This document shows positions 4,219-12,131 of a stretch of 18,897 bases of DNA, one piece after another (within the stretch, counting starts at the first letter, position 1; the number at the start of each line of letters is the position of its first letter). The notes beneath the pieces were generated by a model. That model was given only the letters and a program-made list of their open reading frames with translations. It was not told where the DNA came from and did not search any database. Source of the stretch: Dehalococcoidia bacterium (GTDB lineage: Bacteria > Chloroflexota > Dehalococcoidia > SM23-28-2 > RBG-16-64-32); assembly GCA_030690405.1 (NCBI GenBank), contig JAUYGU010000037.1:1-18897 (forward strand). Direction: 5' to 3'. A program made the translations under genes and the position numbers.

Positions 4219-4431
4219 ATGAGCACCGTCATCATGTACACGCTCCGGAACTGCCCCACGTGCGATAAGGCGCGCGCGGCCCTGGCTGAACGCGGCGTCG
4301 AGTTCGAGGAGCGGCGAGTGGACGAGAACGAGCAGTGGTGGGAAGAAGCCCTCAAGTACGCCTTCACGGTCCCCGTCATCATCTGGGGCGAGGCGAACGT
4401 CGAGATCGGCTGGGAGGGCGAGCATGGCTGA
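4219..4431 (+). CDS. Glutaredoxin-like thiol-disulfide protein
   Basis: A 70-residue thioredoxin-fold protein, at the short end for glutaredoxin/NrdH proteins. It begins with the first beta strand (VIMYTL), then the dithiol active site CPTC (residues 12-15), and has the cis-proline segment TVPV at 50-53. The C-terminus after the last strand is reduced to IGWEGEHG, so helix three is nearly absent. It should reduce disulfides or glutathionylated/low-molecular-weight thiol adducts in the cytoplasm; the partner is unknown. Its stop codon overlaps the start of cysS by eight bases, so the two are translationally coupled. A ribonucleotide-reductase (NrdH) role is less likely, since no nrd gene is nearby. 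Confidence 0.85.
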   Translation: MSTVIMYTLRNCPTCDKARAALAERGVEFEERRVDENEQWWEEALKYAFTVPVIIWGEANVEIGWEGEHG

Positions 4432-6667
4432 GAGATCAGCTAGGGGAGGCCGGTCGGCCTCCCGACCGACGGCCCGCGGCCGCCCGGACGGACGGCGCCG
4501 GGGCCCGGGGCTAGCCCTGTACAACACACTGACGCGCCGCAAGGACGTCTTCAAGTCGCTGGAGCCGGGCCGGGTCAAGATGTACAGCTGCGGCCCGACG
4601 GTGTACCGCCACGCCCACATAGGCAACCTGCGCGCCTACCTGGTGGCGGACTGGCTGCGCCGCCTGCTGGAGGCGCACGGATACCGGGTCCGGCACGTCA
4701 AGAACATCACGGACGTGGGCCACATGCGGCAGGAGATGCTGGAGCGCGGCGAGGACAAGGTGATCGCCGCCGCCCTGGCCGAAGGGAAGACGCCGGCCGA
4801 GATCGCTCGGTTCTATACGGACGCGTTCATGGCGGACGAGCGCAGGCTCAACATCCTGCCCGCTCACGTCTTCCCCCATGCCAGCGAGACGGTGCCCGAG
4901 ATGGTGGAGATGACGCGCGGGCTGGTGGAGAAGGGATACGCCTACGAGTCGGGCGGCAACGTGTACTTCGCCGTGGATAGGTTCCCGGAGTACGGGAAGC
5001 TGTCCGGACAGACGTCGGGCGGGCTGGAGGCGGGTGCGCGCGCGCAGGCGGACCCGCTGAAGCGCGACCCGCGGGACTTCGCGCTCTGGAAGGCGGCGGA
5101 GCCGGGACGGCAGCTCGTCTGGCCTAGCCCCTGGGGCGACGGATTTCCCGGCTGGCACATCGAGTGCTCGGCGATGGCGGCCAAGCACCTGGGCCCGCGT
5201 CTCGATCTCCACACGGGCGGCGTGGACAACATCTTCCCCCACCACGAGGACGAGATCGCCCAGAGCGAGGCGGCCTTCGGCCATCAGCACGTCAACCACT
5301 GGGCCCACGCGCAGCACCTACTGGTGGACGGCGTGAAGATGGCCAAGTCCAGCGGTAACACCTACACGCTGACGGAGCTGGAGGCGCGCGGCTTCGAGCC
5401 GCTGGCGTTCCGCTATCTCTGCGCCACCGTGCACTACCGGGCACGGATGGATTTCTCGTTCGCGGCGCTGAGGGCGGCGCAGCGGGGGTTGACCCGCCTG
5501 CGGCTGAAGCTCACGGAGCCGGACGGGCGGGTGACGAAGACGGCCCGGGCCGAAGGAGAGCGCTGGCGGCGCCTGTTCTGGACCATCGCTGCCGATGATC
5601 TGGGCCTGCCCGGCGCCCTGGCCGTGGCCTGGCGCGTCGGCCGCTCGCGCCTGGCGGCGCCGATAAAGCGAGAGCTGCTGATGGACTTCGACCGGCTGCT
5701 GGGGCTGGACCTGGTGCAGCCGGTCCGGCCGCGGCGGCCGGACGCCGGTACCGAGGAGATGCTGAACGAACGCGACGGGCGACGGCGGGCCGCCGAATAC
5801 GGCGCGGCGGACCGCATGAGAGAGAAGGTCCTGGCCCAGGGCTTCGAGGTGCGGGACAGCCGCCGCGGGACGTTCGCCGTGCCGCTGCCGCTGTGGGCGC
5901 GCAGCGCGGAGGCGATCTCCACCAGCGCGGACGTGGAGTCGCTGCTGGAGGGGTCGCCGGACCTCGACTTCACGATCGGCATCGTGGCCCGCGAGGGGTG
6001 CTCGGAGCTGGAGCGCTGCGTGAGCAGCATCCAGGGCTGGCTGGGGTCCCGCCGGGCGGAGGTCATCGTCGTCGATAACGGCTTCGAGGACGCCTGCAGC
6101 CTGCGGCTGGACAGCGTCGCCGAGGTCGACCCGCACGTGCGCGTGTTCCACGCGGACCACTTCCTGGGAAGCGCCGCCGGGCGCAACGTCTGCCTGCGCC
6201 AGGCGCGGGGCCGCTACGTCCTCCTGATAGACACGAGCGTGGAGGTGACGGGGGACGTCTTTTCCGGCCTGACGGCGCTCCTGGATGACCCGACGGTGGG
6301 CGTGGTGGGGCGCTGGGGGGTGGTCACGAACGACATCCGCAGCTTCGACGAGGCGACGGCGGCGGGCGACGTCGACGCCGTCGAGGGTTACCTGATGGCG
6401 TTCCGGCGCGAGATCCTGCGGGAGATCGGCCTGCTGGACGAGACGTTCCGCTTCTATCGCCACCTGGACCTGGACTTCAGCTTCGCTGTGCGCAGCCGCG
6501 GCTACCGGGCGGTGGTGGACACGGAGCTACCGCTGATCAGGCACGAGCACGTGGACTGGGAGCGCACGCCGCCGGAGGAGCGGGAGCGTCTGAGCAAGCG
6601 GAACTTCTACCGCTTCCTTCACAAGTGGGGCGACCGTACGGACCTGATCCTGTCCGCGCGGCCCTAG
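4424..6667 (+). CDS. cysS: Cysteinyl-tRNA synthetase fused to a C-terminal GT2 glycosyltransferase-like domain
   Basis: A 747-residue protein about 280 residues longer than a normal CysRS. Residues 1-30 are an Arg-rich tail with no alternative start. Residues 31-490 are a complete class I CysRS: HIGN (65-68), KMAKS (305-309), and Cys56, Cys248, His273 and Glu277 at the spacing of the zinc ligands of E. coli CysRS, ending with the helical anticodon-binding domain (NERDGRRRAAEYGAADRMRE). It charges tRNA-Cys in the cytoplasm. From residue 515 the chain continues in frame as a GT2 fold: FTIGIVAREG, EVIVVDNG, AAGRNVCLRQARGRYVLLIDTSVEV and LDLDFSFAVRSRGYR. The metal site is Asp603-Thr-Ser605 instead of D-x-D, and the usual ED near the end is Arg679-His680, so transferase activity is doubtful. 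Ribosome site GGAGGG. MshC is unlikely because the anticodon domain is present. Confidence 0.92.
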   Translation: MAERSARGGRSASRPTARGRPDGRRRGPGLALYNTLTRRKDVFKSLEPGRVKMYSCGPTVYRHAHIGNLRAYLVADWLRRLLEAHGYRVRHVKNITDVGHMRQEMLERGEDKVIAAALAEGKTPAEIARFYTDAFMADERRLNILPAHVFPHASETVPEMVEMTRGLVEKGYAYESGGNVYFAVDRFPEYGKLSGQTSGGLEAGARAQADPLKRDPRDFALWKAAEPGRQLVWPSPWGDGFPGWHIECSAMAAKHLGPRLDLHTGGVDNIFPHHEDEIAQSEAAFGHQHVNHWAHAQHLLVDGVKMAKSSGNTYTLTELEARGFEPLAFRYLCATVHYRARMDFSFAALRAAQRGLTRLRLKLTEPDGRVTKTARAEGERWRRLFWTIAADDLGLPGALAVAWRVGRSRLAAPIKRELLMDFDRLLGLDLVQPVRPRRPDAGTEEMLNERDGRRRAAEYGAADRMREKVLAQGFEVRDSRRGTFAVPLPLWARSAEAISTSADVESLLEGSPDLDFTIGIVAREGCSELERCVSSIQGWLGSRRAEVIVVDNGFEDACSLRLDSVAEVDPHVRVFHADHFLGSAAGRNVCLRQARGRYVLLIDTSVEVTGDVFSGLTALLDDPTVGVVGRWGVVTNDIRSFDEATAAGDVDAVEGYLMAFRREILREIGLLDETFRFYRHLDLDFSFAVRSRGYRAVVDTELPLIRHEHVDWERTPPEERERLSKRNFYRFLHKWGDRTDLILSARP

Positions 6668-8037
6668 GACCCGCCGGCGGCGCCCAGATTCACCGCGATC
6701 TGCCAGATCTCGGCGGGCTGGAAGAACGTCCTGCGGTAGTTCAGCCAGACATCGGCGGAGCTGTCGTAGGTACCGTCGTAGGCGGCCTGGACGCGATCGT
6801 ATATCTCCTTGACGACGCGACTGGTGCTGGAGAAGCGCGCGGTGAGGCCGCGGGCCTCGGCCTCACGATTGAGGATCGCGACGATCCCCTCCGAGCCGGA
6901 GAGGGCGCCGACGACGCTGCGCTCCGCCTGTTCGCTGCCGACGGTAGCCGGTTCGTAGGCGAGGTAGATGAGGCCGCCGGGAGCGTCCGCCTGCTTCGCC
7001 ACGCCCGCCTGGTGGATGCCGGCCTGCGTCGTGAACACGTCGCCGATGATCGGCGCCGTGCCGGCCAGCGGCGTCAGGTGCTCCTCGACCGTGCGCTTCA
7101 TTTCCCTGAGCACCGGCAGGTCGAAGCCGGGATCGCCGTTGAGGCGGATGTATCCGGTCAGCACCTGCTCCAGCGGCGTGTTGCCGGTGCGCTCGCCCAG
7201 GCCGCCAAAGGTGACGTTGACCTTGCGGCAGCCGTAGCGCCAGGCGGCGAAGGCGTTGGCCGTGGCGAGGCCGAAGTCGTTGTGGCCGTGGAACTCCAGC
7301 TCCGCCCCGGTCTCCGCGAAGAGGGTGGAGACCAGCCGCGGCACGCCCTGGGGCAGGGCGGCGTAGGGGTCCGGCATGCCCCAGCCGATCGTGTCGCAGA
7401 TGCGGAACTTCGCCCGGCCCTCCGTCGCCTCGAGGACGGTGAGCATGAACGGCACCACCCAGCCGAAGACGTCGGCGCGAGTGCAGTCTTCCAAATGTAC
7501 GCGGGGAGTGATGCCGTACTCGCAGGCGGTGAGGATCGGGCGGAGGTACTTGTCGACCGCCTCCTCTTTGCTGTGATAGCCGAGCTTGTCGAAGATGTGG
7601 TGGTCGGAGGAGGAGGCGAGCATCCCTGTCTCCTTGACCCGACCCTGACTGGCATCGTAGAGCTGCTTGACGTCCTTGGGGTTGGCGCGGATCCAGGTGG
7701 TGATCTTCGGGTAGTCGTACTCGCGCTCCAGAAGCTTGTCCAGCACCCAGAGGTCGCGCTCCTGATAGATGAACGTCTCGATGGAGTGGATGACGCCGGT
7801 GCCGTTATCGAGGGCGTGGAGGAGGTCGACGTAGCGGAGGCGGGCCTCGTTGGGGAACAGAGCGAAGCGGGAGTCCTGGGCGCCGTCACGAAGGGTAGTG
7901 TCGGTGATCAGCTTCGGGAGACCGTCGCGAGCGAGGTCGGGGAGGGAGGCGGGCTCCGCCTCCAGGCGGACGGCGGGCATGCGGCCGCCGAAGTTGTAGT
8001 AGACGCGTTCCGGGTTGACGGCGTGCTTAGGCGTCAT
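6664..8037 (-). CDS. HMGL-like DRE-TIM metallolyase (isopropylmalate/homocitrate synthase-like)
   Basis: 457-residue TIM-barrel enzyme of the pyruvate-carboxyltransferase/HMGL family. It has DTTLRDGAQ (Arg50, Asp51), the divalent-metal motif HGHND (His250, His252) and the GLGERTGN motif typical of isopropylmalate and homocitrate synthases, so a Claisen-type condensation of an acyl-CoA with a 2-oxo acid is expected. It lacks the C-terminal LeuA allosteric domain and carries an unusual 40-residue N-terminal lead with YYNFGGRMPAVRLE, so the product (isopropylmalate, citramalate, homocitrate or other) is open. Start chosen at ATG 8037: an upstream ATG at 8067 lies inside the predicted -10 box and would not be transcribed from that promoter, and a much longer open frame runs through the neighbouring PPOX gene. 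It converges on cysS and shares the bases of the stop codon with it. Confidence 0.85.
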   Translation of the reverse strand: MTPKHAVNPERVYYNFGGRMPAVRLEAEPASLPDLARDGLPKLITDTTLRDGAQDSRFALFPNEARLRYVDLLHALDNGTGVIHSIETFIYQERDLWVLDKLLEREYDYPKITTWIRANPKDVKQLYDASQGRVKETGMLASSSDHHIFDKLGYHSKEEAVDKYLRPILTACEYGITPRVHLEDCTRADVFGWVVPFMLTVLEATEGRAKFRICDTIGWGMPDPYAALPQGVPRLVSTLFAETGAELEFHGHNDFGLATANAFAAWRYGCRKVNVTFGGLGERTGNTPLEQVLTGYIRLNGDPGFDLPVLREMKRTVEEHLTPLAGTAPIIGDVFTTQAGIHQAGVAKQADAPGGLIYLAYEPATVGSEQAERSVVGALSGSEGIVAILNREAEARGLTARFSSTSRVVKEIYDRVQAAYDGTYDSSADVWLNYRRTFFQPAEIWQIAVNLGAAGGS

Positions 8038-8065
8038 TCGAAAATCCGATGGGCGTGATAAACCC

Positions 8066-10543: not shown

Positions 10544-10573
10544 TTGCGGCGGCGAAGGGGGTGAATCTATCAT
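10544..10573 (+). promoter_or_regulatory. Probable promoter for ccdA-tlpA
   Basis: TTGCGG (10544-10549), 18-base spacer, TATCAT (10568-10573). The -10 lies downstream of the GTG at 10561 and about 26 bases before ATG 10600, so it favours the ATG as the start of ccdA. The -35 match is only moderate. Confidence 0.4.
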
Positions 10574-10599
10574 GGAGTCGTGGGCGTAAGGGCTGTCTG

Positions 10600-11430
10600 A
10601 TGGGCATCTTCGAAGTCGGCGGCGTCAGCATCTTCGTGGCGTTCGCCGCGGGGCTGCTTTCGTGCGCCTCGCCCTGCGTGCTGCCGCTCGTCCCGGCTTA
10701 CCTGGGCTATCTGACCGGCGCCGCCATCGATTCCACAACCCCCGCGGCGGTGGCTGCCGGCGGGGGGCCGGGCGCCGCCTCAATCGCCATGGGCGGACGG
10801 CCGCCGGCGGCCGTGGCCGGGCCGTCGCCGTTCCTGCACGCGGTGGCGTTCGTCTCCGGGTTCTCGCTCGTCTTCATCATCTTCGGCGCGTCGATCGGGT
10901 TGCTGGGCTTCTTCCTGGGCGGCAACGAGTTCGTCATCCGCGATCAGCAGGACACGATCCTGAAGGTGGCCGGTGGAGCGCTGATCGTAATGGGGCTGCA
11001 CTTGAGCGGCGTCATCACGATCCCATTCCTGGAGCAGGAGAGGCGGATCAACATCAAGGGCGGCGACAGGGCGGGCTACGCCCGCTCGTTCGTGGTGGGA
11101 TCGTCGTTCTCGGCCGGCTGGAGCCCGTGCATCGGCCCGACGCTGGGCGCCGTGCTGACGCTCTCGGCGGCGAGCGCCAGCGCGTGGCAGGGCGTGATCC
11201 TGCTGGCGGTTTACTCGGCCGGGCTGGCGGTACCGTTCCTGGCGATGGGGCTGGCGTTCAACACGCTGAAGCCCGCTTACGCCTGGCTGAAGCGCTACAT
11301 GGGCGTGGTGAACTACGTCAGCGGTGCGTTGCTGATCGTCGTGGGGATCCTGGTCTTCACGGACAGCCTGATCAACCTGAACAGTATGTTCAACTTCGGG
11401 TTCCTGGGCGACCTCTCGGGTGAAACGTAG
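10600..11430 (+). CDS. ccdA: Cytochrome c biogenesis protein CcdA (DsbD transmembrane family)
   Basis: 276-residue inner-membrane protein with six hydrophobic helices. It carries electrons from cytoplasmic thioredoxin across the membrane to extracytoplasmic thioredoxin-like proteins. The two reactive-cysteine helices are clear: LLSCASPCVLPLVPAYLGYL (Cys26) and SAGWSPCIGPTLGAVL (Cys177), in the pseudo-twofold layout of CcdA. Between the first and second helix is a 40-residue Ala/Gly/Pro-rich loop, longer than in short CcdA proteins. I chose ATG 10600 over GTG 10561 because of the predicted -10 and because the earlier residues are not hydrophobic; AAGGG lies just upstream. The TlpA-like gene starts two bases after the stop, so the pair is a System II reductant module. 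Confidence 0.92.
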   Translation: MGIFEVGGVSIFVAFAAGLLSCASPCVLPLVPAYLGYLTGAAIDSTTPAAVAAGGGPGAASIAMGGRPPAAVAGPSPFLHAVAFVSGFSLVFIIFGASIGLLGFFLGGNEFVIRDQQDTILKVAGGALIVMGLHLSGVITIPFLEQERRINIKGGDRAGYARSFVVGSSFSAGWSPCIGPTLGAVLTLSAASASAWQGVILLAVYSAGLAVPFLAMGLAFNTLKPAYAWLKRYMGVVNYVSGALLIVVGILVFTDSLINLNSMFNFGFLGDLSGET

Positions 11431-11432
11431 GG

Positions 11433-12131
11433 ATGGCGGAGACGCGCAGGCGTGACTTGCGGGCGCGGCTGACGGCCCTGGCCGGCCTCGTGGTCATCGT
11501 GGGGGGAGCGGCGCTGGTGCTCTTCCTGGCGGGCGTGTTGGGCGGCCAGGGCGGCGGCGAGACGGAGAGCGGGGTGAAGATCGGGGACGCGCAGGTTCTG
11601 GCGCCGCCGCCGGCGCCGGGCCGCGGTGAGCTCGCCGTCGAGCCAAAGGTGGGCGCGCTGGCACCCGACTTCGAGATATCCGACTACAACGGCGTCCGTC
11701 ACCGGCTCAGCTCGTTCCGCGGTAGGCCGGTCTACCTGAACTTCTGGGCGAGCTGGTGCGTCCCCTGTCAGGCAGAGCTGCCCGACATACAGGAGCTCCT
11801 TGACCGGCACGAGGACGAGCTCATCGTCGTCACAGTGAACCGGCGGGAGCCGCTGGAGCGGGCGCGGCTGTACTTCCAGAACATCGAGAAGCTGAACGGC
11901 GAGCCGGGACTCAGCTTCAGCGTGAACGGGCTGGACCCGGACGACACGCTCTACGGCGAGTACCGCGGCCTGGGGATGCCGGTGAGCGTGTTCATCGACG
12001 CAGACGGCGTCGTGACCAGGGTGAACAACGGCCTTATCCGCCTGCCCCAGATGGAGGAGGCGGTGGCAGAGGCGATCGCCTCCGCGGCTCCGTCCGGGGG
12101 GAGCGCTCCCGGCGGCTCGATCGGCTACTAG
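11433..12131 (+). CDS. Membrane-anchored thioredoxin-like protein (TlpA/ResA family)
   Basis: 232 aa. A basic N-terminus (residues 1-13) is followed by one hydrophobic segment (about 14-36), which is a signal anchor, so the rest faces outside the membrane. After a Pro/Ala-rich linker (about 55-70) comes the thioredoxin fold: GALAPDFEISDYNG, FWASWCVPC with Cys109 and Cys112, and the cis-proline strand GMPVSVFIDADG. This is the layout of ResA/TlpA proteins that reduce apocytochrome c or other exported disulfides. The gene is two bases downstream of ccdA, which supplies its electrons. The tail after residue 215 is Gly/Ser-rich and probably disordered. ResA and a general TlpA cannot be told apart here, as no haem-lyase genes are in the window. 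Confidence 0.9.
   Translation: MAETRRRDLRARLTALAGLVVIVGGAALVLFLAGVLGGQGGGETESGVKIGDAQVLAPPPAPGRGELAVEPKVGALAPDFEISDYNGVRHRLSSFRGRPVYLNFWASWCVPCQAELPDIQELLDRHEDELIVVTVNRREPLERARLYFQNIEKLNGEPGLSFSVNGLDPDDTLYGEYRGLGMPVSVFIDADGVVTRVNNGLIRLPQMEEAVAEAIASAAPSGGSAPGGSIGY

Follow-up and report, generated by a model that had tools for sequence, protein, structure and literature searches.

A recurrent fusion of cysteinyl-tRNA synthetase with a GT-A-type domain in Chloroflexota and a candidate hairpin-GT family directed at tRNACys

Paralogues of cysteinyl-tRNA synthetase (CysRS) or the coding of cysteine have been treated in several reports (accessible text of PMC9437257, PMC5424206, PMC2922099, PMC8762117). 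In the accessible portion of one of them, CysRS* of Desulfobacterales is described as charging SelC*, MshC, likewise a paralogue of CysRS, as linking cysteine to GlcN-Ins, and GluQRS (YadB), a paralogue of GluRS, as modifying the anticodon of a tRNA (PMC9437257), while the available part of another source describes galactosyl and mannosyl modification of queuosine in animal tRNAs (PMC12518689). The fusion protein examined here is reminiscent of these systems: like CysRS*, it occurs as a second CysRS beside a normal one; it has the CysRS catalytic fold in common with MshC; as in GluQRS, a synthetase paralogue may have been turned to tRNA modification; and with the queuosine enzymes it might share a sugar placed at the anticodon, which is an analogy only; their substrate is the queuosine of tRNATyr and tRNAAsp, unlike the tRNACys proposed here. 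Whereas CysRS* has no anticodon domain, the fusion keeps the anticodon hairpin and adds a GT-A domain, which sets it apart from that group. MshC has, to our knowledge, neither an anticodon domain nor a GT domain, and we know of no GT domain in GluQRS, which attaches glutamate. Besides, the MshC model gave the fusion protein 216.4 bits, under its cut-off of 485.1. With the ordinary CysS (TIGR00435), the fusion shares the full domain set, the zinc/cysteine motifs and the anticodon hairpin, to which it adds a C-terminal GT-A domain, a GHM insert and the HIGN/KMAKS signatures, and it usually coexists with another CysRS. From the GT-A glycosyltransferases of the GT2 and ppGalNAc-T (GT27) families it differs in having no DxD motif and in being joined to an anticodon hairpin. 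The literature searched, outside which most subscription journals lie, held no description of a CysRS-glycosyltransferase fusion as far as its accessible text goes, in keeping with the original prediction that no role had been described for this pairing; a count of the string 'glycosyl' gave 0 for each of PMC9437257, PMC5424206 and PMC8762117, and one of 'glycosyltransferase' gave 0 for PMC2922099.

The gene lies in a window of 18,897 nt, i.e. the whole stretch of DNA that was analysed, from a Dehalococcoidia bacterium, and comprises the following parts:

4424 to 6667, + strand: CysRS-GT2 fusion gene, 747 aa (ORF scan, Pfam, TIGR00435, homologues)
4424 to 4510, + strand: Arg-rich N-terminal extension, residues 1-29 (sequence; low confidence in the structure model)
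4550 to 5482, + strand: CysRS catalytic domain, residues 43-353 (PF01406)
4616 to 4627, + strand: HIGN signature, residues 65-68 (motif scan, fused versus unfused CysRSs)
5336 to 5350, + strand: KMAKS signature, residues 305-309 (257 of 265 fused sequences)
5741 to 5872, + strand: CysRS C-terminal anticodon hairpin, residues 440-483 (alignments; accessible part of PMC12684709)
5963 to 6664, + strand: predicted GT-A (GT2-like) domain, residues 514-747 (Pfam, structure look-ups)
6230 to 6244, + strand: DxD-site equivalent D-T-S-V-E, residues 603-607 (third position never D in 92 members)
6449 to 6469, + strand: RFYRHLD motif, residues 676-682, with D682 at the catalytic-base position (alignment)
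6593 to 6616, + strand: conserved tail SKRNFYRF, residues 724-731 (alignment)

The 747-aa reading frame (4424-6667, +) contains no internal stop and matches both tRNA-synt_1e (residues 43-353, E 1.1e-97) and Glycos_transf_2 (residues 520-651, E 2.2e-13; PF00535 score 50.9, above the gathering cut-off of 23.3), confirming the earlier proposal of a complete CysRS joined in-frame to a GT2 domain. The TIGR00435 cysS model covers residues 30-483 with 405.8 bits (cut-off 340). Since the Pfam model of the CysRS C-terminal domain, CysS_C, gave no match in the window protein, its C-terminal CysRS part rests on TIGR00435 and alignment. The predicted structure of the full chain has a mean pLDDT of 82.3 and a pTM of 0.71, and the close relatives P0019 and L001 begin with a similar MAERSA.

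When residues 440-747 served as query, 312 proteins were retrieved, and 118 of the 120 matches listed (60-95% identity; counted by hand from the tables, like the other counts so marked below) carried both PF01406 and PF00535, so the fusion recurs across relatives. Sources named among the matches listed were Dehalococcoidia and Chloroflexi; a one-genome-per-species collection added fusion loci from Thermoflexales, SAR202, Thermodesulfobacteriota and Desulfarculaceae, and the fusion of genome G064 as query returned 633 proteins, including one protein of Thermogemmatispora argillosa, named simply cysteine--tRNA ligase, and several of Ktedonobacteraceae. An assembly or annotation artefact, to which we attach practically no credence, is refuted by the identical architecture in many independent contigs and in the Thermogemmatispora argillosa protein; an assembly join in the window is likewise excluded by the best homologue, P0002, which shares 95% identity with the query and the full-length size of 747 aa with the window protein. 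The CysRS-GT fusion is real and recurrent, and the original view of it as genuine and unusual is supported. Among 107 near-full-length fusions (from 121 proteins), the mean frequency of the top residue was highest in the catalytic domain (0.81), followed by the GT domain (0.78) and residues 361-485 (0.65); the GT part, conserved nearly as well as the catalytic domain, is under strong selection.

A profile of the hairpin and GT domain together detected the module, fused or standalone, in 119 of 400 Chloroflexota genomes at E ≤1e-25 (the set being the phylum of G002, a Chloroflexi MAG that contains locus L005), 100 of them at E ≤1e-70 (hand count), while the 19 weaker genomes, with a best E above 1e-70, may count other GT2s. 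In the phylum of the Desulfarculaceae genome, the profile matched 4 of 198 genomes, 3 of them in fusion-sized frames. The matches fall into two frame sizes, ~690-930 aa for fusions and ~300-345 aa for a standalone form (frames of 350-640 aa in the table of 119 genomes were assigned to neither), and both forms occur together in at least 10 genomes (hand count).

Two aspects had been overlooked in the original prediction, namely that the fused CysRS is mostly a second copy and that the hairpin stays with the GT domain even where there is no synthetase. As to the former, a separate CysRS was found beside the fusion in 44 of 49 fusion-bearing genomes, the window's own genome lying outside this hand count: in 14/14 fusion genomes from the one-genome-per-species loci and, among 64 further Chloroflexota genomes, in 30 of the 35 with a fusion (in G265, G286 and G307 the separate enzyme was seen only in part, and G178, with its frame cut, was excluded from the fusion count). 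All 14 standalone-only genomes likewise contained a CysRS, seen in part in G258, G372 and G378. Judged from this distribution, the fused enzyme appears not to be the housekeeping CysRS, and it would therefore be free to specialise. In the five fusion genomes with no second CysRS (G028, G039, G151, G226, G234), the fused enzyme could be the sole CysRS, or the assemblies may be incomplete. Extra CysRS matches in long open frames were seen at G008:C279:771-2153 (786 aa) and G009:C12:40001-41404 (848 aa), possibly with other appended domains; the single hairpin-GT profile match of each of these genomes lies elsewhere.

In a tree of the synthetase part, all 30 fused rows grouped in a single clade with an SH-aLRT of 100, separate from 12 unfused CysRSs, the latter being those that passed the motif filter in 38 scanned loci. 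HIGN and KMAKS replace HIGH and KMSKS nearly family-wide in the fused enzymes: H[ILV]GN was present in 255 of 265 fused sequences (inspection of the ten off-pattern ones gave HIGN or HVGN in four, HTGN in one, and none in the stretch searched in five), KMAKS in 257, and a GHM insert after ITDV in 261. The unfused enzymes had H[ILV]GH in 9 of 12 and QIGN in the other three. These three (L084, L087 and L090, from genomes G133, G165 and G157) combine QIGN with KMAKS and, with the tree rooted at its midpoint, lie closest to the fused clade, which makes them possible unfused sisters; a signature of the HIGN/KMAKS type may thus predate the fusion. The zinc/cysteine motifs were kept in 260, 257 and 262 of 265 fused proteins, and in the window this site corresponds, by alignment to the E. 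coli residues, to C56, C248, H273 and E277.

A tRNACys(GCA) pattern matched a single site in 18 of 21 fusion genomes, and ARAGORN confirmed a tRNACys at 17 of these 18 sites, G013 being the exception (both hand counts). Within the GCA anticodon, a dedicated second tRNACys is thus not evident. G031 had five tRNACys-like anticodon-arm matches (C5, C28, C33), and at the locus checked, L131, ARAGORN called no tRNA.

The shorter form, of about 300-345 aa, consists of just the CysRS C-terminal hairpin and the GT domain. Across 30 loci of profile matches, searched with flanks of up to 1.5 kb, no CysRS catalytic domain was detected in 25, the other five being fusions. In a module tree (a quick tree of 81 of 95 rows, 14 mostly near-duplicate ones having been dropped, with the root not known and some forks open), the standalone form requires two changes of state. 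The simplest reading would be a fused ancestor that lost its synthetase part, which is favoured because the standalone form retains the CysRS hairpin.

In the E. coli CysRS-tRNACys complex (1u0b), G34 is hydrogen-bonded by Arg427 and Asp436 and stacked on Trp432, with Arg423 in its hydration network (accessible part of PMC12684709). We compared these positions in 92 hairpin-GT members, 36 standalone and 56 fused. (From 106 profile matches, 23 were removed, i.e. 17 same-gene duplicates, the cut or frame-broken L014, L030 and two L015 pieces, and the weak L152 and L171; 12 database proteins were added to give 95 rows, of which L006, L008 and L064, partial fusions or of unclear length, were excluded.) Counterparts of Arg427, Asp436, Trp432 and Arg423 were Arg in 91, Asp in 92, aromatic in 92 and Arg in 91 members, and correspond by alignment to R454, D463, Y459 and R450 in the window. 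Only six of 37 hairpin columns were conserved in ≥87 of 92 members (R450, R454, A462, D463, G473 and D478): three are G34 contacts, and of the rest one is Ala, one is Gly and one is the Asp matching E. coli position 451. A more diverse subset of 11 standalone members kept all four contacts, with most other columns variable. The hairpin of P0209, a standalone protein from Candidatus Limnocylindrales in which CysS_C is followed by the GT domain, aligned to E. coli CysRS 410-459 (E 1.8e-7), the family profile matched 3tqo, 6ujd and 3sp1 at the hairpin, and the window hairpin alone matched solved CysRSs weakly (E 0.1). Besides P0209, CysS_C recognised the L020 fusion; it gave no match in P0199, a member of the other standalone clade whose hairpin aligns too, or in the L026 fusion, so that there, as in the window protein, the hairpin rests on alignment. 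The kept G34-contact residues, whose positions touch the anticodon in the solved E. coli complex, are the main evidence for tRNA targeting, although hairpin residues could be conserved for folding reasons alone.

The GT domain adopts a GT-A fold according to the predicted model (model residues 74-308) and to structure look-ups, which cover the GT part and not the hairpin fold. Alignment to solved glycosyltransferases places D-T-S, followed by V-E, at the DxD site of the window. Across the 92 members, the first Asp of this site was kept in 85 and the Glu four residues past it in 87, and a canonical DxD occurred in 0 of 92: the third position was never Asp, with Ser in 67 and one of Asn, Gly, His, Ala, Cys and Thr in the rest. 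GT27 enzymes carry D-x-H instead of DxD. The catalytic-base Asp was kept in 90 members, the window included, and the nucleotide-binding Asp of VVDNG in 70, its replacements being split evenly between the standalone (11 of 36) and the fused form (11 of 56). The proposal of a non-canonical sugar-nucleotide site is thereby supported, D-T-S at the DxD position included; the late ED, however, is not lost to RH as had been thought, for the HED of the solved glycosyltransferase 6p61 aligns with H-L-D in the window, where Glu is replaced by Leu and the Asp (D682) is kept. The degenerate DxD together with the replaced nucleotide-binding Asp implies that some clades, if not more, may no longer be catalytic; group transfer appears possible, and clades may differ.

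Little in the genomic surroundings was constant. No tRNA gene was found in the 36 loci searched or in the window, and in the loci compared no gene for RNA modification stood consistently nearby, two points against a tRNA-directed role; nor did these loci show an envelope gene cluster recurring around fused genes. Across L001-L031 and the window (32 sources), a MATE gene lay upstream in 16, and HMGL-like and KAS III-like genes were present in 14 and 12, respectively; thiolase and ADC-like genes recurred in part of the loci only, and a YqeY-like gene (Pfam on one) directly preceded 6 of 20 fused genes. One of the standalone clades (L153-L164 and L166, probably Ktedonobacteria) had a ManC-like nucleotidyl transferase gene (PF00483 and PF22640 in L166, the one member tested) in 11 of its 13 loci, at a distance of 0.2-2.5 kb on the upstream side. 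Defence-system models returned 0 matches for three proteins.

With somewhat better than even confidence, we read the protein as a second, non-housekeeping CysRS whose G34-reading hairpin docks a GT-A domain on the tRNACys anticodon arm. The functional core would be the unit of hairpin and GT-A domain: by reading G34, the hairpin would dock the GT-A domain on the arm, where its most likely role would be group transfer from an activated donor, the alternative being to clamp the tRNA. Where a synthetase half is attached, it would probably still activate cysteine on this same tRNA; a standalone unit would work with no synthetase. We infer that tRNA is bound, that the unit acts at the anticodon arm and that a donor group may be transferred there; the hairpin-GT family is probably tRNACys-directed, and its occurrence outside the synthetase suggests an undescribed protein acting on cysteine tRNA. 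It is conceivable, if on the doubtful side, that it represents a bacterial tRNACys glycosyltransferase which captured the G34 hairpin of CysRS, places a sugar at or near the anticodon, and was first fused and later freed. Rather unlikely, in our estimate, is a GT-A pseudo-enzyme that performs no transfer and serves a stress-type second CysRS as an extra tRNA-binding, dimerisation or sensing domain; the absence of Asp from the third DxD position in all 92 members, the loss of the nucleotide-binding Asp in several lineages and the intact zinc/cysteine motifs of the synthetase would fit such a role, yet the catalytic-base Asp and the first DxD Asp persist in 90 and 85 of 92 members, and the standalone hairpin-GT form, persisting with no synthetase, is hard to explain as a charging accessory.

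GT2 enzymes commonly act on envelope glycans, and together with the ManC-like gene of the one standalone clade this could point to a non-RNA acceptor (envelope, lipid or metabolite) with the CysRS hairpin as a mere docking or leftover part. We consider this improbable: within the hairpin, conservation is highest at the G34-reading set, fused genes show no recurring envelope gene cluster, and the ManC-like gene may reflect ordinary gene order, because its block also holds oligopeptidase F (13/13 loci) and G6PD (12/13; Pfam on one member each). The cell-envelope link suggested earlier finds no support, the loci compared showing no recurring neighbour of that kind bar this gene. Less credible still, and with a very slim chance, is the idea that the GT half makes a sugar to which the CysRS half attaches cysteine, mycothiol-style. 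It can appeal to MshC, which joins cysteine to GlcN-Ins (accessible text of PMC9437257), and to the presence, in many of these genomes, of a third CysRS-like protein with no anticodon part. Against this cysteine-sugar thiol link, which had also been raised at the outset, speak the MshC score of the window protein, less than half the cut-off, the anticodon hairpin that the fusion retains, unlike MshC, and the standalone form with no cysteine-activating part; moreover, the MshC-like paralogue also occurs in 7 of 14 genomes with no hairpin-GT profile match.

If the module acts on tRNACys as we favour, it would exemplify how the tRNA-reading part of a synthetase comes to serve a different enzyme, and it would point to a tRNA modification, possibly a new one, in Chloroflexota; were it a tRNACys glycosyltransferase, this would place a bacterial sugar modification of tRNA outside the queuosine pathway. 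The family is widespread and commonly annotated just as 'cysteine--tRNA ligase', which would hide its second function. The prediction at residue level, that R450, R454, Y459 and D463 read G34, makes the model directly testable.

The third CysRS-like protein was seen at L015:19070-20248 (-), with similar frames, mostly of about 390-450 aa, in other genomes with or without the fusion; as the alignment to the cysS model ends near position 375, it seems to have no anticodon part, and the L015 protein reached 382.7 bits with the MshC model against the cut-off of 485.1, which hints at a mycothiol-like ligase in Chloroflexota. In the window itself, an HMGL-like gene (homocitrate/isopropylmalate synthase-type; 6664-8058, -), for which no NCBIfam match reached its cut-off, converges on the fusion gene such that the two stops overlap. 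Further on, at 10561-12131, a CcdA-like membrane protein (Pfam) is followed by a thioredoxin-fold protein, TlpA-like by eye, and homologues of this pair lie downstream in L005, L013, L015 and L017.
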